Shown in pieces: positions 7,758-63,772 of a stretch of 64,000 nucleotides of DNA. The DNA is taken from positions 62,001 to 126,000 of the forward strand of contig NZ_NSET01000021.1 of the NCBI RefSeq assembly GCF_009192945.1, given 5' to 3'. Source of the DNA: Xanthomonas maliensis (lineage in GTDB: Bacteria; Pseudomonadota; Gammaproteobacteria; Xanthomonadales; Xanthomonadaceae). Below the pieces are notes generated by a model. The model was not told the DNA's origin. It saw nothing but the letters and a program-made list of their open reading frames with translations, and ran no database searches. A program made the translations under genes and the position numbers. Numbering within the stretch: position 1 is the stretch's first letter; each line of letters opens with the position of its first letter.

Positions 7758-7764
7758 GGACGGC

Positions 7765-8574
7765 ATGAGCGGCCCCGTCCCGACCGGTCCGTTCCGCAGC
7801 AGCGCGGCGCAAACCACGCGCGCGCTGTTGGCGCTGCGCGAACAGATCCTCGCCGGCGAACTGCCGGTGACGGCACGGCTGTCGGAACTGGCGGTGGTGC
7901 AACGTCTTGGCGTGTCGCGCACGCCGGTCCGTGCGGCCCTGCAGCGCCTGTGCGAAGAAGGCCTGGTGCGCGCGTTGCCCGGTGGCGGCTATGCGGTGCA
8001 GGCGTTCGGCGAGGCCGACGTGCACGACGCCATCGAGCTGCGCGGCACCCTGGAAGGCCTGGCGGCCCGCCTGGCCGCCGAACGCGGTGTCGCAGCGGCG
8101 GACCTGCAACAGGCACACGCGCTGCTCGAGACCTTGGATGCCATCGTCGCCGTGCCGATCGAATGCATCGACGTCATCGCCTATCTGCAAGCCAACGAAC
8201 ACTTCCACGCCCTCCTGTGCAGCATGGCCGGCAGCGCAATCCTGGAGCGCGAAATGGCGCGTACGGTGCGGTTGCCGTTCGCCTCGCCCAGCGGCATGGT
8301 GCAGGCGCAGACCACCGATCGCCACTCACGGCAGATCCTGCTGCTGGCCCAGCAGCAACATCGCGATGTCGTCACCGCCATCGAACACCGTCAGGGCGCG
8401 CGTGCCGAGGCGTTGATGCGCGAACACGCGCGACTGGCCCACCGCAATCTGCAGCAGGTCCTGCAGAGCCCTGCAGCGCGCGAACAGGTCCGCGGTGGCG
8501 CGCTGATCGAGCCCGTCCCCCTTTCCAACGGCGGCCGTCGCCGCCGGTCCCTGTCCGGAGCTTCGCATGCGTAA
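7765..8574 (+). CDS. vanR: GntR-family (FCD) transcriptional regulator VanR
   Basis: Regulator of 269 residues. An N-terminal winged helix (LREQILAGELPV, LAVVQRLGVSRTPVRAALQRLCEEGLV, roughly 24-75) is followed by an all-helical FCD ligand domain (ELRGTLEGLAARLAAERG and the His-containing NEHFHALL, about 95-230). VanR proteins of this type repress vanAB and are released by vanillate. The gene is sandwiched between vanA and vanB, overlapping vanB by 8 bases, so it probably autoregulates with the operon. The assignment rests on context. Confidence 0.87.
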   Translation: MSGPVPTGPFRSSAAQTTRALLALREQILAGELPVTARLSELAVVQRLGVSRTPVRAALQRLCEEGLVRALPGGGYAVQAFGEADVHDAIELRGTLEGLAARLAAERGVAAADLQQAHALLETLDAIVAVPIECIDVIAYLQANEHFHALLCSMAGSAILEREMARTVRLPFASPSGMVQAQTTDRHSRQILLLAQQQHRDVVTAIEHRQGARAEALMREHARLAHRNLQQVLQSPAAREQVRGGALIEPVPLSNGGRRRRSLSGASHA

Positions 8575-9550
8575 AGACACCCAATGGCATCCCGCCCGCG
8601 TGGTCCGCGTCGCCGACGCCTGCGCCGAGGTCCGCGAGATCGTGCTCGATCCAGGCCCGGCCTCGCGCAGCTTCGAGGTCGGTAGCCACCTGGACATCCG
8701 CCTGCAGCTGCATGGCCGCGAGGACGTGCGTTCGTATTCGCTGGTTGGCGAGCCGCGCGCCGATGGCCACTATCACATCGCCGTGCGGCAGATGCCCGAC
8801 AGCCGCGGCGGCTCGCGCCACATGTGGACGCTGGCGCCTGGCGACGAAGTGCAGATCTCACCGCCCAGCAACAACTTTGCGCTCGACGAATCCGGCGAAG
8901 AGATCCTGCTGATTGCCGGCGGCATCGGTGTGACGCCGATCATCGGCATGGCGCAGCGGTTGGCTCGCAGCCATCGCGCCTTCCGCATGCTCTATGTGGG
9001 CCGCTCGCGCGAGACCATGGCCTATGTCGCCGAATTGGAGACCTTGCTCGGCGAGCGCCTGCAGGTGCATTGCGACGCGCAGTCCGGCACGCCGGACCTG
9101 GCCGCCGCGCTGGCGCCGCTCTCGCCCAATGCCGAGGTCTATGTCTGCGGGCCGCTGGGCATGCTCGAAGCGGTGCGGCAGCTTTGGCAGGCCGGTGGGC
9201 GCTCGCGGGCACGCCTGCACTTCGAGACCTTCGGCAATAGCGGCCGGGTGCCGGCGCAGGCCTTCGTAGTGCGATTGCCGCAGCTGGGCCTGGAAGTGCC
9301 GGTGCCGGAAAACATCTCGATGCTCGATGCGCTGACCGATGCCGGCGTGGAACTGATCGCCGACTGTCGGCGCGGCGAATGCGGGCTGTGCGCGGTCCAG
9401 GTTCTGGACCGGTCGGCCGACATCGATCATCGCGACGTGTTCTTCAGCGACGCCGAACACCGCGAGAATCGCAAGCTCTGCGCCTGCGTTTCGCGCGCGG
9501 TCGGCGGCACCATCAGCATCGACACCGGCTACCGACCCGAACCTGCGTGA
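8567..9550 (+). CDS. vanB: Vanillate O-demethylase reductase subunit VanB
   Basis: Electron-transfer partner of VanA, 327 residues, with an FMN/NAD reductase module followed by a plant-type ferredoxin. The flavin motif RSYSL is at 55-59, the nucleotide-binding GGIGVTP at 118-124, CGP at 194-196, and the [2Fe-2S] ligands are Cys267, Cys272, Cys275 and Cys305. It transfers electrons from NADH to the VanA Rieske centre. The start overlaps the vanR end by 8 bases, indicating translational coupling. Confidence 0.94.
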   Translation: MRKDTQWHPARVVRVADACAEVREIVLDPGPASRSFEVGSHLDIRLQLHGREDVRSYSLVGEPRADGHYHIAVRQMPDSRGGSRHMWTLAPGDEVQISPPSNNFALDESGEEILLIAGGIGVTPIIGMAQRLARSHRAFRMLYVGRSRETMAYVAELETLLGERLQVHCDAQSGTPDLAAALAPLSPNAEVYVCGPLGMLEAVRQLWQAGGRSRARLHFETFGNSGRVPAQAFVVRLPQLGLEVPVPENISMLDALTDAGVELIADCRRGECGLCAVQVLDRSADIDHRDVFFSDAEHRENRKLCACVSRAVGGTISIDTGYRPEPA

Positions 9551-9613
9551 ACAAGGCAAGGCAGCGCGGCTGGCATCGGGCGCTGCTGCCGCCGCGCTTG
9601 CATCCTCGCGCAC

Positions 9614-10441
9614 ATGGGCGATGATCTGTGCATGGAGCCGACTCACTACAGGACCGTCCAGGCGCCGGCACTGAACCCGCGCCAGGAACAATTGGTGGCC
9701 CTGGTCCACCAACAGGGCTTTGCCGAGGTGGAAGGGCTCGCCACGCGTTTCGACGTCACCCCGCAGACCATTCGTCGCGATCTGACCTTGCTGTGCGATG
9801 CCGGTCTGTTGCGCCGCTATCACGGCGGCGTCAGCACGCCCTCCAGCGTGGAGAACCTCGCCTATGCCGCGCGCAAGGCGCTGCAAGCCCGCGAAAAGCA
9901 GCACATCGCCGCGCAGGTCGCGCGCTTCATCCCCGACGATGCCTCGCTGTTCATCAACCTCGGCACCACCAACGAAGAAGTGGCGCGGGCGTTGCTGCAG
10001 CATCGCGGCCTGCGGGTGATCACCAACAACCTCAACGTCGCGGTGATGCTCAGCGCCAACCCCGGCTTTGAGGTGATCGTGGCCGGCGGCGTGGTCCGCG
10101 GGCGCGACCAAGGCGTCACCGGCGAGGCGACTGTGGAGCTGATTCGCCAGTTCAAGGTCGACTTCGGCGTGATCGGCATCTCCGGCATCGATCTGGATGG
10201 CACGCTGCTGGACTTCGACTACCAGGAAGTGCGGGTGGCCCAGGCGATCATTGCGCACTCGCGGCAGGTGCTGCTGGCGGCCGATCACAGCAAGCTTGGC
10301 CGCAACGCCATGGTGCGGCTGGGCAGCATCGCCCAGGTCCACGACTGGTTCACCGACCGCCCACCGCCGGCCGAACTGAGCGAGCTGCTGACCAGTGCCG
10401 GCACCCGGGTCCACCTGGCGACAGACGGGTCTGGCCGCTAG
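9614..10441 (+). CDS. glpR: DeoR-family glycerol-3-phosphate regulon repressor GlpR
   Basis: DeoR-type repressor of 275 residues. The N-terminal helix-turn-helix contains the family signature DVTPQTIRRDLTLLCDAGLLRRYHGG (about 45-70); the C-terminal phosphosugar-sensing domain includes GTTNEEVA, ITNNLNVA and ADHSKLGR. It sits directly upstream of glpD-glpF-glpK, which supports the GlpR role. An alternative ATG lies six codons downstream at 9632; the precise start is undecided. Confidence 0.88.
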   Translation: MGDDLCMEPTHYRTVQAPALNPRQEQLVALVHQQGFAEVEGLATRFDVTPQTIRRDLTLLCDAGLLRRYHGGVSTPSSVENLAYAARKALQAREKQHIAAQVARFIPDDASLFINLGTTNEEVARALLQHRGLRVITNNLNVAVMLSANPGFEVIVAGGVVRGRDQGVTGEATVELIRQFKVDFGVIGISGIDLDGTLLDFDYQEVRVAQAIIAHSRQVLLAADHSKLGRNAMVRLGSIAQVHDWFTDRPPPAELSELLTSAGTRVHLATDGSGR

Positions 10442-45790: not shown

Positions 45791-46708
45791 CTAGGCCGGC
45801 ATGGGAATCGTCATCGCCTCGATCCGCGCGGCCAATGCCTGGATCGTCAATTGTGCCGAACGCGACAGCTGGCGCTGCGGCGCCACGCACAAGGCCAGGG
45901 TCATCGGCGTGGTCAGATGCTGACGAAACGGCACGAAGGCCAGGCGGCCCTCGGCCACGTCCGGCGCGGCGTCCAGCCACGACATCAGGCCCACCCCCGC
46001 TCCTGCGCGCACCAGTCCGCGCAGGGTGCGCACATCGTTGCAATGGGTCAGCCGCTTCACGTCGATGTGCTGGCGCTGGTACAGCACCTTGGCATGCTCG
46101 CCGACGATCAACGGTGCCGCCGGCAGCAGCAGGCGATGCTCCAGCGTCTCGCTCAGCTGCAGCGCGCCACGGGTGCTGAGCGGATGACCGACCGGCATGG
46201 CGATCCCCAGCGGCACGTCGGCGAACGCGCGCACCTCCAGATCCACGCTGCTGACTGGGTCCAGCAGCAGGCCAATGTCGACGTCGGCCGAGGTCACCAT
46301 GTCCATCACCTGCTGGTTGCGCGCAGTGGACAGGTTGAAGGTGACGCCTGGATAGTCCTGCACCAGCGCAGCCACCGCTGCCGGCACCAACCCCTCACTG
46401 AGGGCATCGATCATGGCGATCTCGACATGGCCGCGGCGTAGGCCCTTCAGCTCGTCGAAGCGCTCCAGCGTGCGCGCATAGGCCTTCTCCCATTGCCGCA
46501 CATCCACCAGCAGCAGCTCGCCAGCGGCGGTCAGGCGCAGCCGCCCGGGCAGGCGCTCGAACAGCTGTGCGCCCAGCTCCTCCTCGGCCTTGAGAATCTG
46601 CCGGTCGATCGCCGAGGCGGACACGTGCAGCACCTCCGAGGCCTTGCGGATGCTGCCGCAGCGGGCCACTTCGATGAAGTAACGGGTGAAGCGCGAGAAG
46701 GTCAGCAT
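45791..46708 (-). CDS. LysR-family regulator, candidate HpxR-like purine regulator
   Basis: 305 residues from ATG 46708: a LysR helix-turn-helix (FTRYFIEVARCGSIRKASEVLHVSASAIDRQILKAEEELGAQLFERLPGRLRLTAAGE) of the branch with SAIDRQI, then the effector domain. The open frame continues far upstream, but that part is the antisense of the Rieske gene. It is divergent from the Rieske oxygenase; a T-N11-A dyad (46730-46742) lies between them and recurs at the allC promoter, so it probably controls both. In Klebsiella hpxDE lies beside a LysR gene, hpxR. Confidence 0.82.
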   Translation of the reverse strand: MLTFSRFTRYFIEVARCGSIRKASEVLHVSASAIDRQILKAEEELGAQLFERLPGRLRLTAAGELLLVDVRQWEKAYARTLERFDELKGLRRGHVEIAMIDALSEGLVPAAVAALVQDYPGVTFNLSTARNQQVMDMVTSADVDIGLLLDPVSSVDLEVRAFADVPLGIAMPVGHPLSTRGALQLSETLEHRLLLPAAPLIVGEHAKVLYQRQHIDVKRLTHCNDVRTLRGLVRAGAGVGLMSWLDAAPDVAEGRLAFVPFRQHLTTPMTLALCVAPQRQLSRSAQLTIQALAARIEAMTIPMPA

Positions 46709-46726: not shown

Positions 46727-46794
46727 CGTTGCATTTTTTGCATCGGCGAGACTGAAAAACGGCGTTTGATCACACACCCAGCCGTTCCTAGAGT
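46727..46794 (+). promoter_or_regulatory. Promoter and LysR box of the Rieske (hpxDE-like) operon
   Basis: CGTTGCATTTTTTGCA at 46727-46742 contains the T-N11-A palindrome TGCATTTTTTGCA (46730-46742). Downstream are -35 TTGATC (46766-46771) and -10 TAGAGT (46789-46794), 17-base spacer. The box centre is about 65 bases before the predicted transcription start, the standard LysR recognition-site position. The 16-base element is repeated exactly at 61100-61115. Confidence 0.7.
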
Positions 46795-46816: not shown

Positions 46817-47887
46817 ATGCTCGAGACCGCCCTGATGGATGTCGCCGCCCCGATTCCCCCCGTGCACTGCAGCTTCGATGCCGCCGACTGGCAACGCCTG
46901 GCGCAGCACTGGCATGCGGTGGCGCTGAGCAGCGAGGTGGGCGAGGCGCCGTTCAAGGCCACCCTGCTCGACGAGCCGCTGGTGCTGTACCGGGTGGCCG
47001 GCGACCTGGTGGCCGCGCGCGATATCTGCCCGCATCGCGGCGTGCCGTTGAGCATGGGCCGTGCCGATGGCCGCGGCGTGGTCTGCGCCTATCACGGCCT
47101 GCGCTTCGGCGCCGGTGGCCGCTGCAACCACATCCCCGCCAGCCCCAGCCAGAACATTCCCGCCAAGATGCGCCTGCACACCTACGCGGTGGCCGAGCGC
47201 TACGGGCTGATCTGGGTCTGCCTGGCCAAGCCGGCCGGCGTGGAGGCGGCCGAGGTGCAACTGCCGCCGATGCCCCATTGGGACGATCCGGGCTTCCAGC
47301 AGATCGTCTGTCCCGGTTTCGATATCGCCGGCAGCGCAGCGCGGCAACTGGAAGGCTTCATCGATGTGGCGCATTTCGCCTTCGTGCACACCGCCACCTT
47401 TGCCCAACCCGACAAGCAGGAGGTGCCGGCCTACACCACCAGCGAAACGCCCACCGGGTTCAATGCCGACTACTACAGCACGGTGGCCAATTTCTCGGTG
47501 GACATGCCGTTGCCGGAGATTCCGCCGGACTTCCAGTGGTTGCGCCACTTCGAAGTGCACCTGCCATTCACCGCCACCTTGACCATCCACTTTCCGCATC
47601 CCGGCAAGCGGCTGGTGATCATGAATGCCGCCAGCCCGGTCTCCAAGCACCGCACCCGGCTGCTGGTGCCGATCGCCCGCAATTTCGACACCCATCTGCC
47701 GGTGGCGGACGTGCATGCCTTCAACCTGCGGGTGTTCGAGGAAGACCGTGCCATGGTCGAAGCGCAACGGCCCGAATACCTGCCGCTGGACCCGCTGCTG
47801 GAGGTGCACATCCCCGCCGACCGCAGTTCGATCGCCTACCGCCGGGCCTTGCGCAACCAGGGCTATAGCGACTTCTTCCTGCGTTGA
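46817..47887 (+). CDS. hpxD: Rieske oxygenase, HpxD-like (probable hypoxanthine hydroxylase component)
   Basis: 356-residue Rieske non-haem iron oxygenase. The Rieske ligands are Cys71-x-His73 (CPHRGVPLS) and Cys90-x-x-His93 (CAYHGLRFG); the mononuclear iron ligands are in EGFIDVAHFAFVH (Asp183, His186, His191). By architecture it could be a vanillate/aryl-sulfonate-type demethylase, but its neighbours are purine genes and a LysR regulator, as in Klebsiella hpxDE where such a pair oxidises hypoxanthine to xanthine. That function is inferred. ATG 46817 or 46835 could be the start. Confidence 0.78.
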   Translation: MLETALMDVAAPIPPVHCSFDAADWQRLAQHWHAVALSSEVGEAPFKATLLDEPLVLYRVAGDLVAARDICPHRGVPLSMGRADGRGVVCAYHGLRFGAGGRCNHIPASPSQNIPAKMRLHTYAVAERYGLIWVCLAKPAGVEAAEVQLPPMPHWDDPGFQQIVCPGFDIAGSAARQLEGFIDVAHFAFVHTATFAQPDKQEVPAYTTSETPTGFNADYYSTVANFSVDMPLPEIPPDFQWLRHFEVHLPFTATLTIHFPHPGKRLVIMNAASPVSKHRTRLLVPIARNFDTHLPVADVHAFNLRVFEEDRAMVEAQRPEYLPLDPLLEVHIPADRSSIAYRRALRNQGYSDFFLR

Positions 47888-47903: not shown

Positions 47904-48860
47904 ATGAACCTGCATGAGGTCCGCGTCGCCGCAGTGACCGAACAAGGCCATCGTCAGCGTGCCTTCCGGCTGGAGCCGATCGCGCATGCGCTGCCCTCCT
48001 TCGAAGCTGGCGCGCACGTGGACGTGCACTTGCCCGATGGCCTGGTGCGGCAGTATTCGATCGCCAGTGCGCCACACGCGCGCGATCATTACCTGCTGTG
48101 CGTGAAACTGGCAGAAGCCTCGCGGGGCGGTTCGCGTCATCTGTGCGAGCGGGTCCGCGCCGGCGACCGGCTGCGCATCTCCAGCCCGCGTAATCTGTTT
48201 CCCCTGCACCCGGGCGATCGCCACGTATTGCTGGCCGCCGGCATCGGCATCACCCCGCTGCTGTCGATGGCCGAGGCGCTGGACGCCGGCGGCGAGCGTT
48301 TCGTGCTGCATTACTACGTCAGGCGGCAGGCCGAGCTGTCCTTTCTGCCACGGCTGCAGCAAGGCTTCGCGCACGGCCAGGTCCACCTGCACCCGAGCGA
48401 GGCCGGTGAGAGCCTGCGTGTGCAAGTGCCGTCCGCGCTGCGGCAGGTCGGCCCGCGCGACCATCTGTATCTGTGCGGTCCAGCGCCCTTCATGGAGTAC
48501 GCCACGAAGGTGGCGCGCGGACATGGATGGACCGACGCGCAGCTGCATCGCGAACATTTTTCTGCCGTCGCCACCCCAGGCACCGAGCCCGACGCCGCGT
48601 TCGAGGTCGAACTGGCCAGCAGCGGCCGCGTGGTGCAGGTCGCGGCCGATCGCAGCATCGCCAGCGCCCTGCTGGACGCCGGTATCGACGTGCCACTGTC
48701 GTGCGAGCAAGGGATGTGCGGCGCTTGCCTGACCGGCGTGCTGGCCGGCATGCCCGACCATCGCGACAGCGTGCTCAGCGATGCCGAGCGCGCCAGCCAC
48801 CACCAGATGACGCTGTGCTGCTCGCGCAGCCATTCGCCGAGGTTGGTGCTGGCCCTGTGA
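47904..48860 (+). CDS. hpxE: Rieske oxygenase reductase, HpxE-like
   Basis: 318-residue flavoprotein-ferredoxin reductase partner of the preceding oxygenase, built like VanB: flavin motif RQYSIASAPH (49-58), nucleotide site AAGIGITPLLS (111-121), CGP (191-193), then a C-terminal plant-type [2Fe-2S] domain with Cys267, Cys272, Cys275 and Cys305. TGGAGGCGGT stands before ATG 47904, 16 bases after the oxygenase stop. It delivers NADH electrons to the Rieske centre. Confidence 0.82.
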   Translation: MNLHEVRVAAVTEQGHRQRAFRLEPIAHALPSFEAGAHVDVHLPDGLVRQYSIASAPHARDHYLLCVKLAEASRGGSRHLCERVRAGDRLRISSPRNLFPLHPGDRHVLLAAGIGITPLLSMAEALDAGGERFVLHYYVRRQAELSFLPRLQQGFAHGQVHLHPSEAGESLRVQVPSALRQVGPRDHLYLCGPAPFMEYATKVARGHGWTDAQLHREHFSAVATPGTEPDAAFEVELASSGRVVQVAADRSIASALLDAGIDVPLSCEQGMCGACLTGVLAGMPDHRDSVLSDAERASHHQMTLCCSRSHSPRLVLAL

Positions 48861-49115
48861 GGTTAAGGCGCACCCCTCGGCGCGCACGCCAATCGCGCGT
48901 GCGCGCGATGGATGGCCGTGCGCGCCCGTTCATCGGCGCCAACGCGATCACGCGAAACGCGATCGGCCGCCTAGCGTGCGGCTGGCATGCGCTGCCGTGT
49001 GGGGGCAAGATCGCAGCAGCGTGCCGTCGCGGCGCGTCCGTGCTTCCATTCCGACGAGAGGCCAGTCGATGTCCACGTTCCTTGCATGCACCGCGTCTGC
49101 GCCGCACCGCTGCTA

Positions 49116-50429
49116 ATGCGCTGGCCCGATTTCGCCCTGGCTGCCAACGGCAGCGATGTGCGCACCGAAGTGCTGGCCGGGTTCACCACCTTCCTGACGA
49201 TGGCCTACATCGTCTTCGTCAATCCCGACATCCTCGCCAGCACCGGCATGGACCATGGTGCGGTGTTCGTCGCGACCTGCCTGGCCGCTGCGCTGGGATC
49301 GTTGGTGATGGCGCTACTGGCCAATTATCCGATCGGCATGGCGCCCGGCATGGGCCTGAATGCGTTCTTCGCGTTCGGCGTGGTCGGCGCGCTGGGCTAT
49401 TCCTGGCAACAGGCGCTGGGCTTGGTGTTCGTGTCCGGCGGCGTATTCCTGCTGCTCACCTTGACCGGCGCGCGACGCTGGCTGGTCGATGGCATTCCGC
49501 CACCACTGCGTAGCGCCATCGCGGCCGGCATCGGCTTGTTCTTGGCCGTGATCGGTCTGCAGAAGGCCGGGCTGATCGTGGCCCATCCGCAGACGCTGCT
49601 GACGTTGGGCGACCTGCACCGACCCGAGCCGCTGCTGGCGCTGGGTGGCCTGCTGTTGATCGGCGCGCTGGAGCTGTGGCGTGTGCACGCGGCCATGTTG
49701 CTGGGCATCCTCGCCGTTACCGTCGCCGCACTGGCGCTGGGACTGGTGCAGTTCCAGGGCGTGCTGGCGCGGCCGCCAAGCCTGGCGCCAACCTTGCTGC
49801 AGTTGGACCCGCTCGGTGCGCTGCAGCGCCAGGGCGGCAGCGGTGCAGTCACCGCGCTGTTGCACGTGGTGCTGGTGTTCGTGCTGGTGGAGATCTTCGA
49901 TGCCACCGGCACCTTGATGGGAGTGGCGCAGCGCGCCGGGCTGCTGCGCACGGCCGAGCAGCGGCAGCGTTTCGATCGCGCCCTGCTCGCCGACAGCACC
50001 GCGATCGTGGCCGGGGCGCTGCTGGGGACCTCCAGCACCACCGCCTACGTGGAGAGCGCCGCTGGCGTGCAGGCCGGCGGACGCACCGGCCTGACGGCGC
50101 TGACGGTCGCCGCGCTGTTCCTGCTGGCATTGCTGTTCTCGCCATTGGCAGCCATGGTGCCGGCCTACGCGACCGCACCGGCCCTGATCTACCTGGCCTC
50201 GGTGATGCTGCGCGAATGCGCCCATATCCGCTGGGACGACGTTGGCGACGCCCTGCCCGCGAGTCTGTGCATGCTGGCCATGCCGCTGACGTATTCGATT
50301 GCAAACGGCCTGGCGCTGGGCTTTGTCAGCTACGCCGCGTTGCAGCTGTGCCGTGGACGCTGGCGCGGCGTCCATCCGGCAACCTGGGTGATCGCCGGCC
50401 TGTTCTTGCTGCGTTTCGCAATGGAATGA
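49116..50429 (+). CDS. AzgA-type NCS2 purine permease
   Basis: 437-residue membrane protein with about 12-14 spans. COG2252 marks: VRTEVLAGFTTFLTMAYIVFVNPDIL, ANYPIGMAPGMGLNAFFAF, SAIAAGIGLFLAVIGLQKAGLIV, LVEIFDATGTLMGVAQRAGL and GTSSTTAYVESAAGVQAGGRTGLTA. Relatives import adenine, guanine or hypoxanthine by proton symport. It follows the hpxDE-like pair in the same direction after 255 bases, in which I see no gene. ATG 49116 is chosen because residues before it are not family-like. Confidence 0.9.
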   Translation: MRWPDFALAANGSDVRTEVLAGFTTFLTMAYIVFVNPDILASTGMDHGAVFVATCLAAALGSLVMALLANYPIGMAPGMGLNAFFAFGVVGALGYSWQQALGLVFVSGGVFLLLTLTGARRWLVDGIPPPLRSAIAAGIGLFLAVIGLQKAGLIVAHPQTLLTLGDLHRPEPLLALGGLLLIGALELWRVHAAMLLGILAVTVAALALGLVQFQGVLARPPSLAPTLLQLDPLGALQRQGGSGAVTALLHVVLVFVLVEIFDATGTLMGVAQRAGLLRTAEQRQRFDRALLADSTAIVAGALLGTSSTTAYVESAAGVQAGGRTGLTALTVAALFLLALLFSPLAAMVPAYATAPALIYLASVMLRECAHIRWDDVGDALPASLCMLAMPLTYSIANGLALGFVSYAALQLCRGRWRGVHPATWVIAGLFLLRFAME

Positions 50430-50602
50430 GCAGCAGGCCCGCTGGTGACGACAGCCAGACGCGCGCGATGCCCCTGCCGCAGCGGTTACGATGCCACTCA
50501 GGCCAAGCGCCGGACGCTGCGGTCGTTCTGTCCGCCGCGCGTTGCCGGCCCGTCCTGTCTGCGGCTTCGCCGCATCGCCCACCTTCGCGAGTCCCTGCCT
50601 GC

Positions 50603-52144
50603 ATGCCGACGCCTCACCGCCTGTTGCTGTTCACCCTCTGGCTGCTGTTGCCGACGCTGGCGCAGGCACGCCCGACTGCGGCGCCGACGCGCGAGCAGCA
50701 GGTCGCAGCGATCTTCCGCCAGGCCGCCGCACGACCCGCGCAACTGCGCATCCTGCTCCAGGCCATGCCCAAGGGCGGCGATCTGCATAACCATCTTTCC
50801 GGCTCGGTCTATGCGGAGGATTACCTGCGCTGGGCCGACGAAGACGGCGCCTGCGTGCAGCTGGACGACGTGAGCCTGCGCGCACCGCCCTGCACCGACG
50901 GCCAGCAACCTGCGCGTGGATTGGCCGCGCGCGATGCCGCGCTGTACGCCCGCCTGGTGGATGCCCTGTCCACCCGCAACTACGTGCCCGGTCAACCGCA
51001 GGCATCCGGGCACGATCGCTTCTTCAGCACCTTCGGCAAGTTCGACGCGGTGGTGCGTGCGCGCGTCGCCGACACCCTGGGTGCGGTGCTGGAACAGGCC
51101 GCGCGCGACCGCGTGCCCTACGTGGAAATCATCGCCAATCCACCGCAGATGGAACAGGTAGCCAAGCGCATGCGGAGCCTGCCGTGGCATGGCGAGGACG
51201 ATGCCGCCAATCTGCGCGAACTGCAGGACGCCTTGCCGGCACTGGTGCAGGACGCGCAGCGCGACCTCGCCAGCCTCGATGCCGACGTCCGCACGCGGCT
51301 GCAGTGCGGACAACCGCAGGCGCGCCCAGGCTGTGCAGTCGACTACCGCTATCTGCCCTATGTGCTGCGCGTGCTGCCGGAGCCGCAGGTGTTCGCACAG
51401 ATGGCGTTGGCGCATGCCTTGGTTGCAGCGGGTGGCAGCCGCGCGGTCGCAGTGAATATCGTCGCCCCCGAAGACAACCCGGTGGCCCTGGCCGACTACA
51501 CGCGCCATATGGCGATGTTCCGTTTCTTCGCCCAGCGCTATCGCAACGTGCCGCTGAGCCTGCACGCCGGCGAATTGAGCCTGGGCCTGGTGCCGCCGGC
51601 ACACCTGCGCTCGCATATCCGCCAGGCGGTGGATGCCGGCGCCCGCCGCATCGGTCACGGCGTGGACCTGCCCTACGAAGACGCGCCGGCGGCATTGCTG
51701 CAGCAGATGCGGCGCATGCAGGTGGCGGTGGAGATCAACCTCACCAGCAACGATGTGATCCTTGGCGTGCGCGGCGCGTCCCATCCGCTGGCCTTGTATC
51801 TGCGCGCCGGCGTGCCGGTGGTGCTGTCCACCGACGATGCCGGGGTGGCGCGCTCGGACATGACCCACGAATACCAACGGGCCATGCAGGAAAAAGGCAT
51901 CGATTACCCGACGCTCAAACAACTGGCGCGCAATGGCCTGCGGTACAGTTTTCTGCCGGGCGCCGATCTGTGGAGCGCCGACGGCCACGCCGTCGCGGCG
52001 TGTGCCCGCGCACTGGCCGAGGAGCGCGATGAGGCCGCCTGCCGGCGCTTCCGCCAGGGCAGCGTCAAGGCGCAACAGCAATGGCAGTTGGAGCAGGCGC
52101 TGGTCCGCTACGAACGCGACCTGCTCGCCGGGCCACCGCAATGA
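50603..52144 (+). CDS. Exported adenosine deaminase-like hydrolase
   Basis: 513 residues. A hydrophobic signal peptide (HRLLLFTLWLLLPTLAQA) targets it to the periplasm or outside. The deaminase core has the zinc motif GGDLHNHLSGSVY, the catalytic LSLHAGE, RIGHGVDL, NLTSNDVIL, and STDDAGV with the last metal Asp. It is longer than cytoplasmic Add (about 340), like the ADGF/CECR1-type extracellular deaminases. It would turn external adenosine into inosine ahead of the nucleoside hydrolase and permease. Confidence 0.85.
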   Translation: MPTPHRLLLFTLWLLLPTLAQARPTAAPTREQQVAAIFRQAAARPAQLRILLQAMPKGGDLHNHLSGSVYAEDYLRWADEDGACVQLDDVSLRAPPCTDGQQPARGLAARDAALYARLVDALSTRNYVPGQPQASGHDRFFSTFGKFDAVVRARVADTLGAVLEQAARDRVPYVEIIANPPQMEQVAKRMRSLPWHGEDDAANLRELQDALPALVQDAQRDLASLDADVRTRLQCGQPQARPGCAVDYRYLPYVLRVLPEPQVFAQMALAHALVAAGGSRAVAVNIVAPEDNPVALADYTRHMAMFRFFAQRYRNVPLSLHAGELSLGLVPPAHLRSHIRQAVDAGARRIGHGVDLPYEDAPAALLQQMRRMQVAVEINLTSNDVILGVRGASHPLALYLRAGVPVVLSTDDAGVARSDMTHEYQRAMQEKGIDYPTLKQLARNGLRYSFLPGADLWSADGHAVAACARALAEERDEAACRRFRQGSVKAQQQWQLEQALVRYERDLLAGPPQ

Positions 52145-52367
52145 CTTCAGCACGGTGCGTGCCCAAGGCCCTGCCGCGGCAGGGCTCAACGCCGTCGCTG
52201 GCGATGGGTGCAATCCCGCAACCGGCTGGCGCGTCTGGACACCACGTCGATGGCTGCGCAGGCGACGCCGCCATCGACCCGCCGCGTGCGCGCGCGTCCC
52301 CACTGCGGCATCGCATTGCACCGCAACGTCCGCTCACTCCGATCGTTCCCGCGCTCCGTTCGACGCC

Positions 52368-53453
52368 ATGACCTCCAGCTCGCCCACTTCTAGACGCAAA
52401 GTCATCCTCGAAGACGACATCGACGGCTTCACGCCCGCCCAGTTGCTGCTGCTGCAATCGCCCGAGGTCGAGGTGCTCGGCATCAGTGCGGTCAGCGGCA
52501 ACATCTGGCGCGACGCGGTGCTGGCGCATAGCTGCCGCTTGCTCGAACTGGCGGGCCAGCCGCAGATCCCGGTGCTGCCGGGGCCGGTGCATCCGCTGCT
52601 CAATAGCGAGCTGGCCACCGAACGCTGGGAGGCGCTCTACGGCAAGCTGGTGTGGAAGGGCGCGTGGACACGGCGATGGGTGGACGGCGACACCGTGCAA
52701 AGTGCGCCGCGCTACCACGCCCATGATGTCGTGCCCGACCTGCCGCTGGGCAACCCCAGCGTGGTGCGCCCGGCCGACGAGCCGGCCGCGCTCTTCATGT
52801 TGCGCATGCTGCGCGCCCATCCTGGCGAGATCAGCATCGTCGCCACCGGCCCAATGACCAACCTGGCGCTGGCGCAGTCGCTGGATCCGAGCTTCGCCAC
52901 GCTGGCGCGCGAGCTGGTCTACATGGGCGGCAGCCTCAATCCGCGCCGACAGCGCGACAGCGTCAGCGCGCAGCAATTCGCCCGCGAGTTCGTCAACTCG
53001 CCACGGCGCGAATTCAACATCCGCTGGGATCCGGAGGCCGCGCGCATCGTCATGCGCGCGCCGTGGCGCAAGATCACCATGGTGCCGGTGGATCCGTCCA
53101 CCGCCACCGAACTCACCCCGGCGCTGCTGGCGCGCATGAGCGCGGCCGATACGCCGATCGGCCAAGCGTTGCGGCGCCGCGAACCGGGCTTCCCGATGTG
53201 GGATGAACTGGCGACCGCGGTATGGCTGCAACCGGCGCTGGCCACCCGCACCGAGACGTTGTACGTGGATACCAATACGGCCTTCGATGCCGGCTATGGC
53301 GACATCCTGTCGTGGGCACCGGGTTACCAGCCCGGCCTGGGCGAACAGGCGCAGACGGTGGTGCATGCGGTCGACGTGCCAGCGTTCGAGCAGCTGCTGG
53401 TCGACCGCCTGACGGCTGCGCAACCGCCGGCGGTCGGTGCGCCGTTACCATGA
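52368..53453 (+). CDS. Nucleoside hydrolase-like protein with altered metal motif
   Basis: 361 residues related to inosine-uridine nucleoside hydrolases: QSPEVEVLGISAVSGN, ATGPMTNLALAQ, YMGGSLN, EFNIRWDPEAARIV and MVPVDPS follow the family. The hallmark N-terminal DTDPGxDD that binds calcium is replaced by LEDDIDGFTPAQ, so metal binding or chemistry may differ. There is no signal peptide. It is placed between the adenosine deaminase and the amidase, suggesting inosine/adenosine cleavage to the base and ribose. ATG 52368; the 223 bases before it show nothing. Confidence 0.75.
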   Translation: MTSSSPTSRRKVILEDDIDGFTPAQLLLLQSPEVEVLGISAVSGNIWRDAVLAHSCRLLELAGQPQIPVLPGPVHPLLNSELATERWEALYGKLVWKGAWTRRWVDGDTVQSAPRYHAHDVVPDLPLGNPSVVRPADEPAALFMLRMLRAHPGEISIVATGPMTNLALAQSLDPSFATLARELVYMGGSLNPRRQRDSVSAQQFAREFVNSPRREFNIRWDPEAARIVMRAPWRKITMVPVDPSTATELTPALLARMSAADTPIGQALRRREPGFPMWDELATAVWLQPALATRTETLYVDTNTAFDAGYGDILSWAPGYQPGLGEQAQTVVHAVDVPAFEQLLVDRLTAAQPPAVGAPLP

Positions 53454-53629: not shown

Positions 53630-55090
53630 ATGCAGATCCCCATGCAGTGGCAGGCCGGCATCGCACGCAACGCCGATATCCTGCGCGGCCACGCACAATT
53701 GCTGTCCGGCTTCAGCGCCCCGCGCAACGCGGCGGCCGACACCGGCGGCCCACGCGGACACCTGGCCGCCATCGTCGCCAAGACCCGTAGCCAGCCAGCG
53801 CAGGCCGCGCGTCTGGCCACGCAAACGCTGAGCCGCATCCACCAGGCCAACGACCACCTGCGCGCGATCACCCGTCTGCTGCCGGCCCGTGCGGCCGCCG
53901 ATGCGGCGCGCGTGCAGGCGGCGCTGGCGGGCGGTAGCGACGGCGGCGCGCTGGCGGGCGTGCCATACGTGGTCAAGGACTTGTTCGACATCGCCGGCCA
54001 GGTCACCACCGCCGGCGCGCAAGTCCGCGCCCACTGTCCGCCGGCCAGCCGCGACGCCGCCGTGGTGCAGCGCCTGGCCGATGCCGGTGCAGTGTTGGTC
54101 GGTACCGCCAACATGGACGAATTCGCCTACGGCTTCGCCACCGTCAACGCGCACTACGGCGCGACCGCCAACCCGCACGATCCGCTGCATCTGGCCGGCG
54201 GCTCGTCCGGCGGCTCGGCAGCCGCGGTGGCCGCGGGCCTGGTGCCATTCGCGCTCGGCTCGGACACCAATGGCTCGATCCGCGTGCCGGCGGCGCTCTG
54301 CGGCGTTTACGGCCTGCGCCCCACCCATGGCAGCCTGCCGCTGGAAGGGGTGTTCGGGTTCGTCGATGCGCTGGACGTGGTGGGGCCGTTCGCCACCTGC
54401 GTGGCCGATCTGCGCCGCGTGTACGAGGTGATGCTCGGCACGTCGGTGCCCTGCTGCGACAGCGCTGGCTTGCGGGTGGCACGCCTGGGTGGCTGGTTCC
54501 AGCGCAATCTGGATCCGGAACTGGAGAACGGGCTGACCGCGGTGCTGAGCGGCTGCCGCAGCAGCGAGGTGGTCGAGTTACCGGAAGCCGAGCGCGCGCG
54601 CGCAGCGGCCTTCGTGCTCACCGCCGCCGAGGGCGGTCATCGCCATCGTGCCAGCCTGGGCACGCATGCCGAACAGTTCGATCCGGCGACCCGCGACCGC
54701 CTGCTCGCAGGCCTGCAATTGCCTGCCTGCGCGGTGGCCGATGCGCAGCGCTTCGCGCACTGGTTCGTCGGTGCCATGCGCCAATTGTGGGACACGGTGG
54801 ACGTGCTCATCGCCCCGACCGTGCCCTGCGTGGCGCCGCGCATCGACCAGGACACCATCCAGATCGATGGGCTGCCGGTGTCCGCACGCGCCAACCTGGG
54901 CGTGCTCACCCAGCCGCTCGGCCTGGCCGGCTGTCCGGTGCTGGCCGCTCCGCTACCGCGTCCGGGACGGCTGCCGCTGGGCGTGCAGCTGATCGCCGCA
55001 CCGGGCCGCGAGGATCGCCTGTTCGCCTTGGCTGCGCAGCTGGAGCGCGACGGCCTGCTGGCCTTCAGTCCTCCCGCGCAGGCGCATTGA
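53630..55090 (+). CDS. AtzE/HpxY-type amidase with AtzG-like N-terminal extension
   Basis: 486-residue amidase-signature hydrolase. Catalytic triad: Lys116 (VVKDLFD), cis-Ser in GGSSGGS (192/193) and nucleophile Ser216 in GSDTNGSIRVP. AtzE relatives hydrolyse carboxybiuret-type ureido acids; HpxY belongs to the Klebsiella oxalurate branch. The first 41 residues (MQWQAGIARNADILRGHAQLLSGF) do not belong to the amidase fold and resemble the C-terminal half of the small partner AtzG/HpxX. ATG 53630 has AGAGG upstream and an in-frame stop two codons before. The stop overlaps the next ATG. Confidence 0.82.
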   Translation: MQIPMQWQAGIARNADILRGHAQLLSGFSAPRNAAADTGGPRGHLAAIVAKTRSQPAQAARLATQTLSRIHQANDHLRAITRLLPARAAADAARVQAALAGGSDGGALAGVPYVVKDLFDIAGQVTTAGAQVRAHCPPASRDAAVVQRLADAGAVLVGTANMDEFAYGFATVNAHYGATANPHDPLHLAGGSSGGSAAAVAAGLVPFALGSDTNGSIRVPAALCGVYGLRPTHGSLPLEGVFGFVDALDVVGPFATCVADLRRVYEVMLGTSVPCCDSAGLRVARLGGWFQRNLDPELENGLTAVLSGCRSSEVVELPEAERARAAAFVLTAAEGGHRHRASLGTHAEQFDPATRDRLLAGLQLPACAVADAQRFAHWFVGAMRQLWDTVDVLIAPTVPCVAPRIDQDTIQIDGLPVSARANLGVLTQPLGLAGCPVLAAPLPRPGRLPLGVQLIAAPGREDRLFALAAQLERDGLLAFSPPAQAH

Positions 55091-56670
55091 TGCTGCACAC
55101 CACGCACGCGCATCGCGGAATGGTGGTGGCCCCGCATCACCTGGCCGCGCAGGCCGGGCGCGACGTGCTGTGCGATGGCGGCACCGCCATCGAGGCAGCG
55201 GTGGCCACTGCCGCCTGCCTGGCGGTGGTGTACCCACACATGACCGGCATCGGCGGCGACGGCTTCTGGCTGATCCATGAAGCGGACGGCCGTGTGCATG
55301 CCATCGATGCCTGCGGACGCGCGGCGCAGGCCGCGACGCTGGCGTTCTATCGCGACCACGCCAGCATTCCCTGGCGCGGACCCGCAGCTGCCAACACGGT
55401 GGCCGGAACCGTGTCCGGCTGGGCACAGGCACTGCAACACGGCGGCGCAGGTCTCTCGCTGCAACGGCTGCTGCGCGACGCGATCCATCATGCCAGCGAC
55501 GGCGTGGCGATCACCTCGGGCGGCGCGCAGGTGGCTGCAACCAAGCACGCCGAACTGTGCGCCCAGCCTGGCGCCTACGCACAGATCTTCGCACCGCAGG
55601 GCGTGCCGCTGCAGGAAGGTGCGCGACTGCGGCAGCCACAGCTCGCACGCACGCTGCATCGCCTGGCCAGCGACGGTCTGGAGGACTTCTACCGCGGCGC
55701 GCTGGCCGCCGACATCGCCGCCGATCTGCACGCGCTGGGCAGTCCGCTGCTGGCACAGGATCTGGCCGATCACCGTGCCGAGGCCAGCACCCCGCTATCG
55801 GTCGCCATCGCCGGCGCGCGCCTGTACAACCACGCACCGCCCACCCAGGGCCTGGCCTCGCTGCTGATCCTGGCGCTGTTCGACCGCCTGCAGGTCGATG
55901 CCGTCGACAGCTACGCGCATCTACACGGGCTGATCGAGGCGACCAAGCAGGCCTTCCTGATCCGCGACGCACACATCGGCGACCCGGCCTGGATGACGCT
56001 CGATGCGCAGGCCTTGCTCGACGACGCCAGCGCGCTCGACGCGCTGGCCGCGCGCATCGACCCAATGCGCGCGCTTCCTTGGCCGCAGCCCTCCCAGGCC
56101 GGCGACACGGTCTGGTTCGGTGCCATCGATGGCCACGGCCAGGCCGTCAGCTGCATCCAGTCGACCTACTTCGAATTCGGTTCCGGACTGGTGCTGCCAC
56201 GCACCGGCATCACCTGGCAAAACCGCGGCAGCAGCTTTCGCCTGGCCGCAGCGGGCTGGAACGCGCTGGCGCCAGGACGCAAACCCTTCCACACCCTCAA
56301 CCCGGCGCTGGCACGCTTCGACGATGGCCGGGTCATGGCCTACGGCACCATGGGCGGCGAGGGGCAACCGCAAACGCAGGCAGCGATCTTCAGTCGCTAC
56401 GCGCGCTTCGGCATGCCGTTACAGCAGGCGATCAGCGCGCCGCGCTGGTTGCTCGGCCGCACCTGGGGCGAGGACAGCACCAATTTGAAACTGGAAAGCC
56501 GCTTCGATCCTGCGGTGGTGCAGGCCTTGCGCACGGCCGGCCACGTCGTCGAACACGTGCCGGCCTATAGCGCGGTCATGGGGCATGCCGGCGCGCTCGT
56601 GCGCGCGCTGGACGGCACGCTCAGCGGTGCCAGCGATCCGCGCTGCGATGGCGCAGCAGCGGGCTGGTAG
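55090..56670 (+). CDS. hpxW: GGT-family Ntn-hydrolase, HpxW-like (oxamate amidohydrolase)
   Basis: 526 residues of the gamma-glutamyltransferase fold: MTGIGGDGFWLIHEADGRV, the autoprocessing threonine in AGDTVWFGAIDGHGQAVSCIQ followed by STYFEFGSG, and a late TLNPALARFDDGRVMAYGTMGGEGQPQTQ. There is no signal peptide, unlike periplasmic GGTs. Length, lack of export signal and coupling (TGATG overlap) to an HpxY-type amidase match Klebsiella HpxW, which hydrolyses oxamate to oxalate and ammonia. Substrate assignment is by analogy. Confidence 0.75.
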   Translation: MLHTTHAHRGMVVAPHHLAAQAGRDVLCDGGTAIEAAVATAACLAVVYPHMTGIGGDGFWLIHEADGRVHAIDACGRAAQAATLAFYRDHASIPWRGPAAANTVAGTVSGWAQALQHGGAGLSLQRLLRDAIHHASDGVAITSGGAQVAATKHAELCAQPGAYAQIFAPQGVPLQEGARLRQPQLARTLHRLASDGLEDFYRGALAADIAADLHALGSPLLAQDLADHRAEASTPLSVAIAGARLYNHAPPTQGLASLLILALFDRLQVDAVDSYAHLHGLIEATKQAFLIRDAHIGDPAWMTLDAQALLDDASALDALAARIDPMRALPWPQPSQAGDTVWFGAIDGHGQAVSCIQSTYFEFGSGLVLPRTGITWQNRGSSFRLAAAGWNALAPGRKPFHTLNPALARFDDGRVMAYGTMGGEGQPQTQAAIFSRYARFGMPLQQAISAPRWLLGRTWGEDSTNLKLESRFDPAVVQALRTAGHVVEHVPAYSAVMGHAGALVRALDGTLSGASDPRCDGAAAGW

Positions 56671-60914: not shown

Positions 60915-61236
60915 ACCACCTCCGGGGCGAGGGACGATGGGAGGCGACACGCAGGTGCAGCAGCCAACGCATAAGCACCAGGCGCCACCGGCTTGCGGCG
61001 TTGCTCCGCAGACCACGACAGCACGGCACACCGCATCCGCACGCCGCACATCAGCGACCGCACCCGGCACGGGGCATCCACGTCGATCAACGGCCCACCC
61101 GTTGCATTTTTTGCAGCACGACCGCGCGAAAAAACTCGTTGATGGCGACAGTGGCGTCTCCCTATAGTCGAGCCATCCCCTGCCGCCCGCGTCCGGACTG
61201 TCGTCGATGTCTCGCGGGCCATGATCGGTCTTGTCG
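60915..61236. other. 322-base gap holding the allC promoter
   Basis: No gene is seen. The right half contains the shared LysR box and promoter described at 61100-61168. Confidence 0.6.
61100..61168 (+). promoter_or_regulatory. Promoter and LysR box of the allC operon
   Basis: CGTTGCATTTTTTGCA at 61100-61115 is identical to 46727-46742. It is followed by -35 TTGATG (61139-61144) and -10 TATAGT (61163-61168) with an 18-base spacer; both promoters also carry an A-run near the same offset. Very likely controlled by the LysR regulator at 45791-46708. Confidence 0.7.
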
Positions 61237-62526
61237 ATGCCTGTCGCCATCCAGTCCTGCCCCACTGCCGGCGACGCCGCCCTGACCGCTGGCGCACGCG
61301 CGGTCGCGCGTTGCGTGAGCTTGGGCGTGGCGCCGTATAGCGATAGTGCGCGCGGGCTGTTTCGCGGCTGGCTCAGTCCCGGCCATCGCGCCACCGTCCG
61401 CCAGGTCGGCGAGTGGATGGAAGGTGCCGGCATGCAGGTCCGCCTCGATCCGCTGGGCACCTTGATTGGCCGTTACGAGGGCGCCCAGCCAGGCGCACCG
61501 GCCCTGCTGCTCGGCAGCCATCTGGATAGCGTGCGCGACGCCGGCTATTACGATGGGCCGCTGGGAGTGATGCTGGCGATCGAGTGCGTGGCCGCCCTGC
61601 ATGCGCAGGATCGACGCCTGCCGTTCGCGCTGGAGGTGCTCGGGTTCGGCGACGAGGAAGGCTCGCGCTTTCCGGCTTCGATGTTCGGTAGTCGCGCGGT
61701 CGCGGGCACCCTGGCGCCAACCGCGCTGGAGGCGATCTGCGACAGCGAAGGCATCAGCGTGCCGCAGGCGCTGGCCGCCTGGGGTCTGGATGCCGCGCGC
61801 TTGGGCGAGGCCGCACGGCGACCGCATGAGGTCATCGGCTATCTGGAGACGCATATCGAGCAGGGACCGGTGCTGGAGGCGGCAGCGCTGCCGGTCGGCG
61901 TCGTCACCGGCATCGCCGCACAGCTGCGCCTGCAGGTCCGCGTGCACGGCCGGGCCGGCCATGCCGGGACCTGCCCGATGCACTTGCGCCAGGACGCGCT
62001 GGCTGCGGCCGCCGAAGGCGTGCTTGCCGCCGAAGCGGTGGCACGTGCGGGCAGCGACGATCTGGTCGCCACCGTCGGCCGACTGGCGCTGCGCCCGGGA
62101 GCGACCAATGTGGTGCCCGGCTGGGTGGAGTTCTCGCTGGACGTGCGCGCGGCCAGCGCCGATGTCCGCGATGCTGCCGCCACGCAGATCCAGCAGCGCC
62201 TGCAGGCCATTGCCGACGCCCGTGGCGTGGGTGTCGAAGTGCAGACCGTGCAGGCGCTGCCGGCCAGTCCCTGCGCACCGGCCCTGGTGGCACAGGTGGA
62301 GGCCGCGGTGCGCGCGCAGGGACTGCCGGTACGTCGGCTGGTCTCCGGTGCCGGCCACGATGCGATGGTGATGTCCGCACTGTGCCCGACGGCGATGCTG
62401 TTCGTGCGCTGCGCCGGTGGCATCAGCCACCATCCGGACGAACATGTCGACCCGGCCGATGCCGAGGTCGCGTTGGCGGTCATGCGCCACTTCATCGATC
62501 ACCTGGGAGCGTCTCTTGTCACCTGA
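61237..62526 (+). CDS. allC: Allantoate amidohydrolase AllC (M20 family)
   Basis: 429-residue zinc hydrolase: LLLGSHLDSVRDAGYYDGPLGVMLAIE (metal His and Asp), GFGDEEGSRFP (Glu pair), ETHIEQGPVLE, RAGHAGTCPMHLRQDA in the dimer domain and SGAGHDAMVMS followed by GGISHHPDEH. It converts allantoate to ureidoglycine (or beyond) with release of ammonia and CO2. N-carbamoyl-amino-acid hydrolases look similar, but the following pucG and puuE decide for allantoate. ATG 61237 is preferred over TTG 61231. Confidence 0.9.
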   Translation: MPVAIQSCPTAGDAALTAGARAVARCVSLGVAPYSDSARGLFRGWLSPGHRATVRQVGEWMEGAGMQVRLDPLGTLIGRYEGAQPGAPALLLGSHLDSVRDAGYYDGPLGVMLAIECVAALHAQDRRLPFALEVLGFGDEEGSRFPASMFGSRAVAGTLAPTALEAICDSEGISVPQALAAWGLDAARLGEAARRPHEVIGYLETHIEQGPVLEAAALPVGVVTGIAAQLRLQVRVHGRAGHAGTCPMHLRQDALAAAAEGVLAAEAVARAGSDDLVATVGRLALRPGATNVVPGWVEFSLDVRAASADVRDAAATQIQQRLQAIADARGVGVEVQTVQALPASPCAPALVAQVEAAVRAQGLPVRRLVSGAGHDAMVMSALCPTAMLFVRCAGGISHHPDEHVDPADAEVALAVMRHFIDHLGASLVT

Positions 62527-63772
62527 TCTGCGGCATCTGCATACCTTTGGCGAACTCGATCCACCGCAACGGTTGCTGATGGGGCCGGGTCCTGTCAACG
62601 CCCATCCGCGGGTGCTGCGCGCGATGGCGGCCGACCTGCTCGGCCAATTCGATCCGGAAATGACCGCCTACATGAACGAGGTGATGGCGTTGTACCGGCC
62701 GCTCTTCGGCACCGAGAACCGCTGGACCTTTATGGTCGATGGCACCGCCCGCGCCGGCATCGAGGCGGCGCTGGTGTCGCTGGTGCGCCCGGGCGACCGC
62801 GTGCTGGTGATCAACTTCGGCCGCTTCGGCCTGTTGCTCACCGAAATCCTGCAGCGCATCGGTGCAGAGGTGCAGAGCGTCGACGCGCCCTGGGGCGAGG
62901 TGGTGCCGCAGGCGGCGATCGCCGATGCGATCGAACGGGTCGCGCCCAGCGTGGTCGCCACCGTGCATGGCGATACATCCACCACCATGGCGCAACCGCT
63001 CGATGGCCTGGGTGCGCTGTGTCGTGCAGCCGGCGCGCTGAGTTACGTCGATGCCACCGCCACCCTCGGCGGCATGGAGATCGCCAGCGACCGCTGGGAC
63101 GTGGACGTGGTCACCGGCGGCCTGCAGAAGTGCCTGGGTGGGCCATCCGGCTCGGCGCCGATCACGGTCTCCGCGCAGGCGGCCGAGGCGATCTTCGCGC
63201 GGCGCCATGTCGAGCGCGGTATCGCCCGTGCCGATATCGCCGATGGCAGCGGCCTGCGCATCGGCTCGAACTATTTCGATCTGGCGATGATCATGGATTA
63301 CTGGTCGGACAAGCGCCTGAATCACCATACCGAGGCCACCAGCATGTTGTACGCCGCCCGCGAGTGCGCGCGTGTCGCGTTGCAGGAAGGCCTGCCGACG
63401 CGTTTCGCCCGTCATGCCGCCGCCGGCCGCGCGGTGGTGGCCGGCGTGCGTGCACTGGGGCTGCAGGTCTTCGGCGACGATGCGCAACGCATGCACAACG
63501 TCACCGGCGTGGTGATCCCGGCCGGCATCGATGGCGAGGCCGTGCGGCGGCGCATGCGCGAGGATTTCGAGATCGAGATCGGCACCGCGTTCGGGCCGCT
63601 GCAGGGGCGCATCTGGCGCATCGGTGCGATGGGCTACAACGCGATGAAGCACAAGGTGCTGCTCACCCTGGCCGCACTGGAAGCGGTGCTGCGCGCCGAG
63701 GGCCACGTCTGCACCCCGGGGCTGGCCGTGGACGCCGCGCTGGCCGCCTGGCACATGGAGCCGGTGACATGA
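62516..63772 (+). CDS. pucG: (S)-Ureidoglycine-glyoxylate aminotransferase PucG
   Basis: 418-residue class V PLP aminotransferase: LLMGPGPVNAHPRVLRAM at the N-terminus, VHGDTSTTMAQPLDGLG, SYVDATATLGGMEI and the PLP lysine Lys205 in TGGLQKCLGGPSG. It transfers the amino group of ureidoglycine to glyoxylate. The start is TTG 62516 with GGGAG 6 bases upstream, overlapping allC by 11 bases; no ATG fits the homologous N-terminus. The stop overlaps the puuE ATG (ATGA), showing a coupled operon. Confidence 0.9.
   Translation: MSPDLRHLHTFGELDPPQRLLMGPGPVNAHPRVLRAMAADLLGQFDPEMTAYMNEVMALYRPLFGTENRWTFMVDGTARAGIEAALVSLVRPGDRVLVINFGRFGLLLTEILQRIGAEVQSVDAPWGEVVPQAAIADAIERVAPSVVATVHGDTSTTMAQPLDGLGALCRAAGALSYVDATATLGGMEIASDRWDVDVVTGGLQKCLGGPSGSAPITVSAQAAEAIFARRHVERGIARADIADGSGLRIGSNYFDLAMIMDYWSDKRLNHHTEATSMLYAARECARVALQEGLPTRFARHAAAGRAVVAGVRALGLQVFGDDAQRMHNVTGVVIPAGIDGEAVRRRMREDFEIEIGTAFGPLQGRIWRIGAMGYNAMKHKVLLTLAALEAVLRAEGHVCTPGLAVDAALAAWHMEPVT

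Follow-up and report, generated by a model that had tools for sequence, protein, structure and literature searches.

A shared two-part promoter element at hpxDE and allC of Xanthomonas maliensis, a probable operator of the purine regulator HpxR

Which protein reads a 16-base sequence that stands unchanged before two purine promoters of Xanthomonas maliensis? The element, CGTTGCATTTTTTGCA, occurs in exact copies at 46727-46742 and 61100-61115, both on the + strand, as the preliminary description of this DNA had stated, within a window of 64 kb (the whole stretch of contig NZ_NSET01000021.1 that was analysed). The reading favored here, with a probability of about nine in ten, is that both elements are operators of HpxR, the putative purine-sensing LysR-type activator encoded by the gene at 45791-46708.

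That gene (hpxR, 45791..46708, - strand) encodes a protein of 305 aa with the Pfam domains HTH_1 and LysR_substrate, showing 48.2% identity to HpxR of Klebsiella pneumoniae over 305 of 305 residues. Across the gap and on the + strand lies a Rieske oxygenase gene (hpxD, 46817..47887; Pfam Rieske and VanA_C) whose product is 64.7% identical to K. pneumoniae HpxD over 351 residues, followed by a reductase gene (hpxE, 47904..48860, +) with Fer2 and FAD/NAD-binding domains, so that a Rieske oxygenase and a ferredoxin-type reductase similar to HpxD and HpxE stand together. The Rieske protein, searched against plasmid records, matched 94 of them, and many among the 20 listed carry the name "molybdenum cofactor-independent xanthine hydroxylase subunit HpxD". 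The K. pneumoniae record annotates hpxO, hpxR and hpxD as neighbours, with hpxR and hpxD divergent as in the window. In a tree of 30 proteins, a single 17-row clade (98/95) unites the window LysR with HpxR of Klebsiella, Pantoea and Acinetobacter, and the second K. pneumoniae HpxR homologue falls outside it. Because of these identities, record names and the tree clade, the LysR protein is read as HpxR, ortholog of the Klebsiella protein, and the Rieske pair as HpxDE. Against the AllS model the window HpxR gives a weak match of 52.9 bits, the cut-off being 372. Oxidation of hypoxanthine/xanthine is the putative function of HpxDE according to the record names and PMC7373994.

The purine cluster continues on the + strand with an NCS2-type purine permease (48987..50429; Pfam Xan_ur_permease), an adenosine deaminase-like gene (open frame 50432..52144, true start inside; Pfam A_deaminase, the frame best conserved in six relatives), a nucleoside hydrolase (51933..53453, true start later; Pfam IU_nuc_hydro at residues 169-486), an AtzE-family amidohydrolase (HpxY-like, 53630..55090; TIGR02715 above cut-off) and a gamma-glutamyltranspeptidase-like gene (HpxW-like, 54787..56670, true start later; Pfam G_glu_transpept). 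Prolyl-oligopeptidase-like and alpha/beta-hydrolase genes on the opposite strand separate this cluster from the second box, beyond which are found allC, encoding an allantoate amidohydrolase (HpxK-like, 61237..62526, +; NF006775 above cut-off, ATG start read from the sequence), and a class V aminotransferase gene (HpxJ-like by position, 62417..63772, +, true start later; Pfam Aminotran_5). An aminotransferase gene similar to the latter also adjoins the allC homologue of K. pneumoniae.

LysR-type activators are anchored at a T-N11-A site near -65 and contact a further site near -35 on ligand binding, and both window promoters show such a two-part layout: with the transcription start assumed about 7 nt after the -10, the box centre falls near -65, as had been claimed, and a second half near -35. 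At the hpxDE promoter, the recognition half of the putative operator 1 (46727..46742, +) is followed by a downstream half, GAAAAACGGCGTTTGATC (46754..46771, +; conserved in the genus and beyond), which overlaps the -35 TTGATC (46766-46771), from which 17 nt lead to the -10 hexamer TAGAGT (46789..46794, +). The putative operator 2 at allC repeats the recognition half (61100..61115, +), with a downstream half GAAAAAACTCGTTGATG (61128..61144, +; from sequence and genus comparison) overlapping the -35 TTGATG (61139-61144) and, after 18 nt, the -10 hexamer TATAGT (61163..61168, +). Both recognition halves are assigned on genus conservation, matrix score and shuffles. The -35/-10 pairs and their spacers of 17 and 18 nt agree with the preliminary description, as does the divergent orientation of hpxR at the first copy, its ATG ending at 46708, 18 nt from the box. 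The perfect T-N11-A dyad is likewise present in both copies, but its TGCA-N5-TGCA form turned out to be mostly a feature of the Xanthomonas group, the widely common form being T-N11-A with the right half TTTTTGCAAC plus the downstream half. TGCA-N5-TGCA had also been proposed as a search box, for which it is too loose and would miss most distant members; alone, at up to one mismatch, it gives 77 matches in the window against 54 expected, a number reached in none of 100 shuffles.

The exact 16-mer is present twice in the window and zero times in each of 100 dinucleotide shuffles; at up to three mismatches the window again holds just those two copies, and 3 of the 100 shuffles also reach two. 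The organism's own genome (5,196,983 bases in 141 contigs) contains two exact matches to TGCATTTTTTGCA, both of them the window copies, plus two one-mismatch matches (L003 and L004) that were set aside as chance since both lie within unrelated ORFs, that of L003 presumably encoding a tryptophan-2,3-dioxygenase-like protein. GTTGCATTTTTTGCA has 50 matches in this genome (two exact, none with one mismatch, four with two and 44 with three) against 30 for the reversed control. The composite TTTTTGCA-N23-TKGA finds exactly two, both window sites, and its reversed control one.

Conservation in related species, which the preliminary description had named as a check on the element, was found at both promoters across the genus. 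HpxR is present in 33 of 35 genus genomes (E up to 1e-60) and AllC in 31 (E up to 1e-100); HpxR, AllC and HpxD are all absent from G023 and G045 at the same thresholds (1e-40 for HpxD). The box stands between lysR and hpxD in 32 of the 33 genomes with HpxR: 28 of 30 loci read have GTTGCATTTTTTGCA exactly, L049 has one mismatch and L055 one T fewer, and G003 and G013 carry it at the right position. At allC it is found in all 31 genomes with AllC, one across a contig break (in G006 box and promoter end one contig and allC ends another). A reading of 30 allC loci gave the box in 27 (26 within two mismatches, L067 one T short); the remaining L068, L087 and L091 were resolved in further readings, the box being located by coordinates in G012 and G007 and present in G043 as well. 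The -10 follows the end of the box by 46 nt in every one of the 30 lysR promoters, and by 46 (16 promoters) or 47 nt (11) in the 27 at allC. TTTG follows the box end by 22 nt in all 30 lysR promoters; at allC the script placed it at 23 nt (19 promoters), 22 (7) or 21 (1), the window allC falling among the 23-nt group only because its half reads GTTGA, and TTTGG at 23 nt replaces TTTGA at 22 in 18 of 27. Owing to this varied spacing and sequence, the downstream half is looser at allC than at lysR.

Eight of the 27 allC promoters have a GTTGC form with six T, L067 has that form with five and 18 have a GTCGC form, and the GTTGC and GTCGC types differ elsewhere too. AllC is 67-77% identical to its genus orthologs, compared with 90-95% for HpxR; this low identity and the two promoter types together suggest that the allC unit changes faster or has been exchanged. 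The 33rd genome with HpxR, X. cucurbitae CFBP2542 (G024), kept the regulator, but its lysR box has decayed to GTTGCATGGCGTGCG and the -10 is gone; no HpxD (E 1e-40) and no AllC (E 1e-100) were found there. Decay of the box where both targets were lost supports an operator role, as far as a single genome can.

An order-wide search (299 genomes, top seven candidates per genome scored, E 1e-45) found HpxR in 13, eight of them in the same genus, four in one sister genus and one other that matches a Frateuria locus (L155). HpxD is absent from all four sister-genus genomes (E 1e-40). In each of the four, hpxR lies directly upstream of allC with an identical 15-base box between them, at allC, and none has a good box match at hpxR's own start; allC itself was recognised in L095 and in X. 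bonasiae L162, as an open reading frame or by protein comparison. Regulator and box thus appear to stay together after rearrangement, which supports a role as HpxR operator. On the strand of hpxR and some 10 kb downstream of it, all four genomes also show a strong MoCoBD_2 match, which in the one genome studied in detail is xdhB within xdhABC, all three genes above their NCBIfam cut-offs. In sister-genus locus L265 (6640-17783), box, allC, aminotransferase, a 204-aa frame, a FAD/NAD-binding protein and xdhABC follow one another on one strand; HpxR might reach xdhABC through read-through. The best MoCoBD_2 match in the X. maliensis genome is a PaoC-type aldehyde oxidoreductase, a second match being weaker. 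One further sister-genus pattern match (L142) was dismissed as chance, having matched none of nine window proteins.

A scan of genome contigs found 267 relatives, of which the best 80 were kept, giving 85 promoters together with those of the window, Klebsiella, Pantoea, Acinetobacter and a Pseudomonas putida plasmid; one contig titled Actinobacteria (L215) is read as a mis-binned MAG. The two-part pattern (TTTTTGCA in at least 7 of 8 positions, with TTTGA in at least 3 of 5 exactly 22 nt on), itself learnt from the same promoters, stands upstream of hpxR in 80 of the 85, in Alpha-, Beta- and Gammaproteobacteria (48 of 51 outside Xanthomonadales), against 0.84 on average and 3 at most in 50 shuffle rounds. 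It is absent from five (L162, L187, L213, L226 and L230), the lack in L162 and L187 being accounted for by the cases described earlier, and the alphaproteobacterial L213, L225, L226 and L230 have no site of score at least 9 by hpxR; L213 and L226 read TTTTTGGGCAACGC there, possibly a changed operator. TTTTTGCA and TTTGA at a distance of 22 nt served as anchors of the alignment, from which the matrix sequences (31 and 25) were hand-picked, leaving out the five pattern-less promoters and also L225. Among the 31 chosen representatives the four leading T and the GCA never vary, and the A that comes next is present in 30. For this reason of choice the LysR-side scores from the scan for sites by hpxR are not independent; neither matrix contained the allC site or the second sites. 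The matrix from 25 non-Xanthomonadales promoters scores the window sites at 31.9 and 16.6, the next best being 0.8; among 200 column-shuffled matrices the highest values on the window are 6.6 for the best site and -1.1 for the second best. Since no allC site went into the matrix, this recovery of both sites is the most telling of the tests.

In 19 of 52 named loci the 31-sequence matrix detects a second site scoring at least 18, compared with none for any of 40 shuffled matrices. The genes downstream were read in 13 of the 19 (all except L205, L212, L219, L222, L224 and L232). Second sites stand at hpxD (L201, L202, L207), at an NCS2 permease (L197, L204), at adenosine deaminase (L217) and at an SBF-type transporter gene, assigned by Pfam in L208, where its end is AtzG-like, and by resemblance in L211, L220, L227 and L229; in L229 the transporter is followed by AtzE, permease, GGT, AllC and aminotransferase genes. 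The hpxE genes that stand apart from hpxD have their own putative operator (L158 945, -; L168 4627, -). The composite pattern gave 19 matches in 12 genomes or records, 14 of them read as at HpxR or purine genes, and is not clean by itself since its reversed control gives 9 in the same set; of the three K. pneumoniae matches, two precede HpxR-family genes, and the one in X. massiliensis is at allC. The K. pneumoniae hpxJ-hpxXYZ region has no site above a score of 4.9, and the allC branch is therefore not general. K. pneumoniae L243 carries a second HpxR-like LysR gene (585-1565, -; 45% identity) divergent from an HpxE-like reductase (1692-2658, +), with the same operator pattern between them. 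A TonB-dependent receptor gene (7280-9847, -) is divergent from hpxR in Sphingomonas L197, followed by a purine nucleoside permease-family gene, perhaps reflecting HpxR-controlled purine uptake through the outer membrane. On the P. putida plasmid (L241, 4475-5979) hpxD has a putative operator, and the sequence upstream of it resembles an hpxR start, where the incomplete gene table lists no gene.

In the mechanism proposed from these sequences, their conservation, geometry, co-occurrence and linkage with hpxR, HpxR would hold the T-N11-A recognition half at about -65 and, when bound to a purine, would also engage the downstream half at -35 and recruit RNA polymerase. From operator 1 it would turn on hpxDE and the following purine genes for uptake and oxidation, in an operon of predicted extent, and it probably limits its own transcription, since the hpxR start is 18 nt away. 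From operator 2 it would turn on allC and the aminotransferase, that is, allantoate breakdown, so that one sensor of early purines would also switch a late step. The regulon of Rieske oxygenase and allantoate genes put forward in the preliminary description is thus supported by conservation at both promoters, the distance to the -10, decay upon target loss, sister-genus linkage and the matrix. Beyond Xanthomonas, we lean towards regarding HpxR and its operator of about 42 bp as a proteobacteria-wide purine-breakdown switch that outlasts its enzymes, placed before permeases, adenosine deaminase, hpxD, hpxE, AtzE-type and allantoate genes and surviving a change of the first enzyme (Mo-free HpxDE in Xanthomonas, xdhABC in the sister genus).

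Three other explanations have to be weighed. Operator 1 may be real while operator 2, a promoter-strength copy or a weakly bound site, has little effect on an allC that is mainly controlled otherwise; the lower matrix score (16.6 vs 31.9) and the changed downstream half of most allC promoters (TTTGG at 23 nt) speak for this, and we consider it improbable given that all 31 genomes with AllC preserve the recognition half at that gene, through two otherwise differing promoter types, and that in the sister genus it is the sole site at allC. It is very unlikely that another regulator, a different LysR-type protein or one of nitrogen status, binds the box and HpxR is a mere neighbour. Binding by HpxR is a prediction from sequence, the 33 genus genomes with HpxR hold 26-57 first-look LysR candidates each, and hpxDE of Klebsiella also responds to nitrogen; against this, the box precedes hpxR in 80 of 85 promoters of three classes, is present where hpxR moved beside allC, has decayed where the targets were lost in X. 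cucurbitae, and accompanies even the second K. pneumoniae HpxR homologue.

That the repeat is accidental, or that it is an upstream promoter element rich in A/T, for which the run of T at the core might be taken, is almost certainly the wrong reading and already largely refuted by the shuffles (an exact copy in 0 of 100), the matrix and the 85 promoters; the GCA after the T run, invariant in the 31 representatives, would be needless in an A/T tract. Control by a riboswitch was also considered, and no Rfam family reached its gathering score at 36000-64000 of the window. Operators of HpxR remain the preferred reading of both elements.

Half of this regulon, HpxR with hpxDE, is already known from Klebsiella. 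What looks new, as far as limited literature searches go, is the allC branch together with the wider operator: among the matches listed from open-licence full texts there was nothing on HpxR binding or regulons, HpxR in Xanthomonas, control of allC by it or a two-part operator, and those listed for the term "HpxR" dealt with the human receptor hPXR or with other subjects. A regulator known from one Klebsiella operon would thereby gain a regulon predictable in many genomes, and a DNA site suggested to be longer than the published one. Purine use in Xanthomonas would have its first step and one of its late steps governed by a single sensor. HpxR would also be a case in which a regulator is kept while the enzyme beneath it changes from Mo-free to Mo-dependent.

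Klebsiella HpxR reportedly binds between hpxR and hpxD, activates hpxDE in the presence of hypoxanthine and represses its own gene. Its site, which we take to be TCTGC-N4-GCAAA, corresponds to the other strand inside the conserved K. pneumoniae stretch, TTTTTTGCAAC being conserved in the hpxR-hpxD gap of both this species and the window. The two systems share an orthologous regulator and oxygenase, divergent genes and an operator in the gap; unlike K. pneumoniae, with no site above 4.9 at hpxJ-hpxXYZ, the window has a second operator at allC, and its conserved operator is longer and two-part. Since Pantoea does not preserve the GCAGA half of the Klebsiella site, we think that the real operator is probably the two-part one. 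The HpxR-hpxDE work (de la Riva et al., 2008, J Bacteriol 190:7892) is cited in PMC7373994, and hpxR and hpxDE are named in PMC8151138. AllS of E. coli, described in PMC12535856 as a LysR-type activator of allantoin genes, resembles HpxR as a LysR-type protein of ureide breakdown and differs from it in genes and site. The NMT1 / xanthine-II riboswitch, reported upstream of HpxD/HpxE-like genes in PMC7373994, controls genes related to the purine oxygenase genes of the window, but through RNA.
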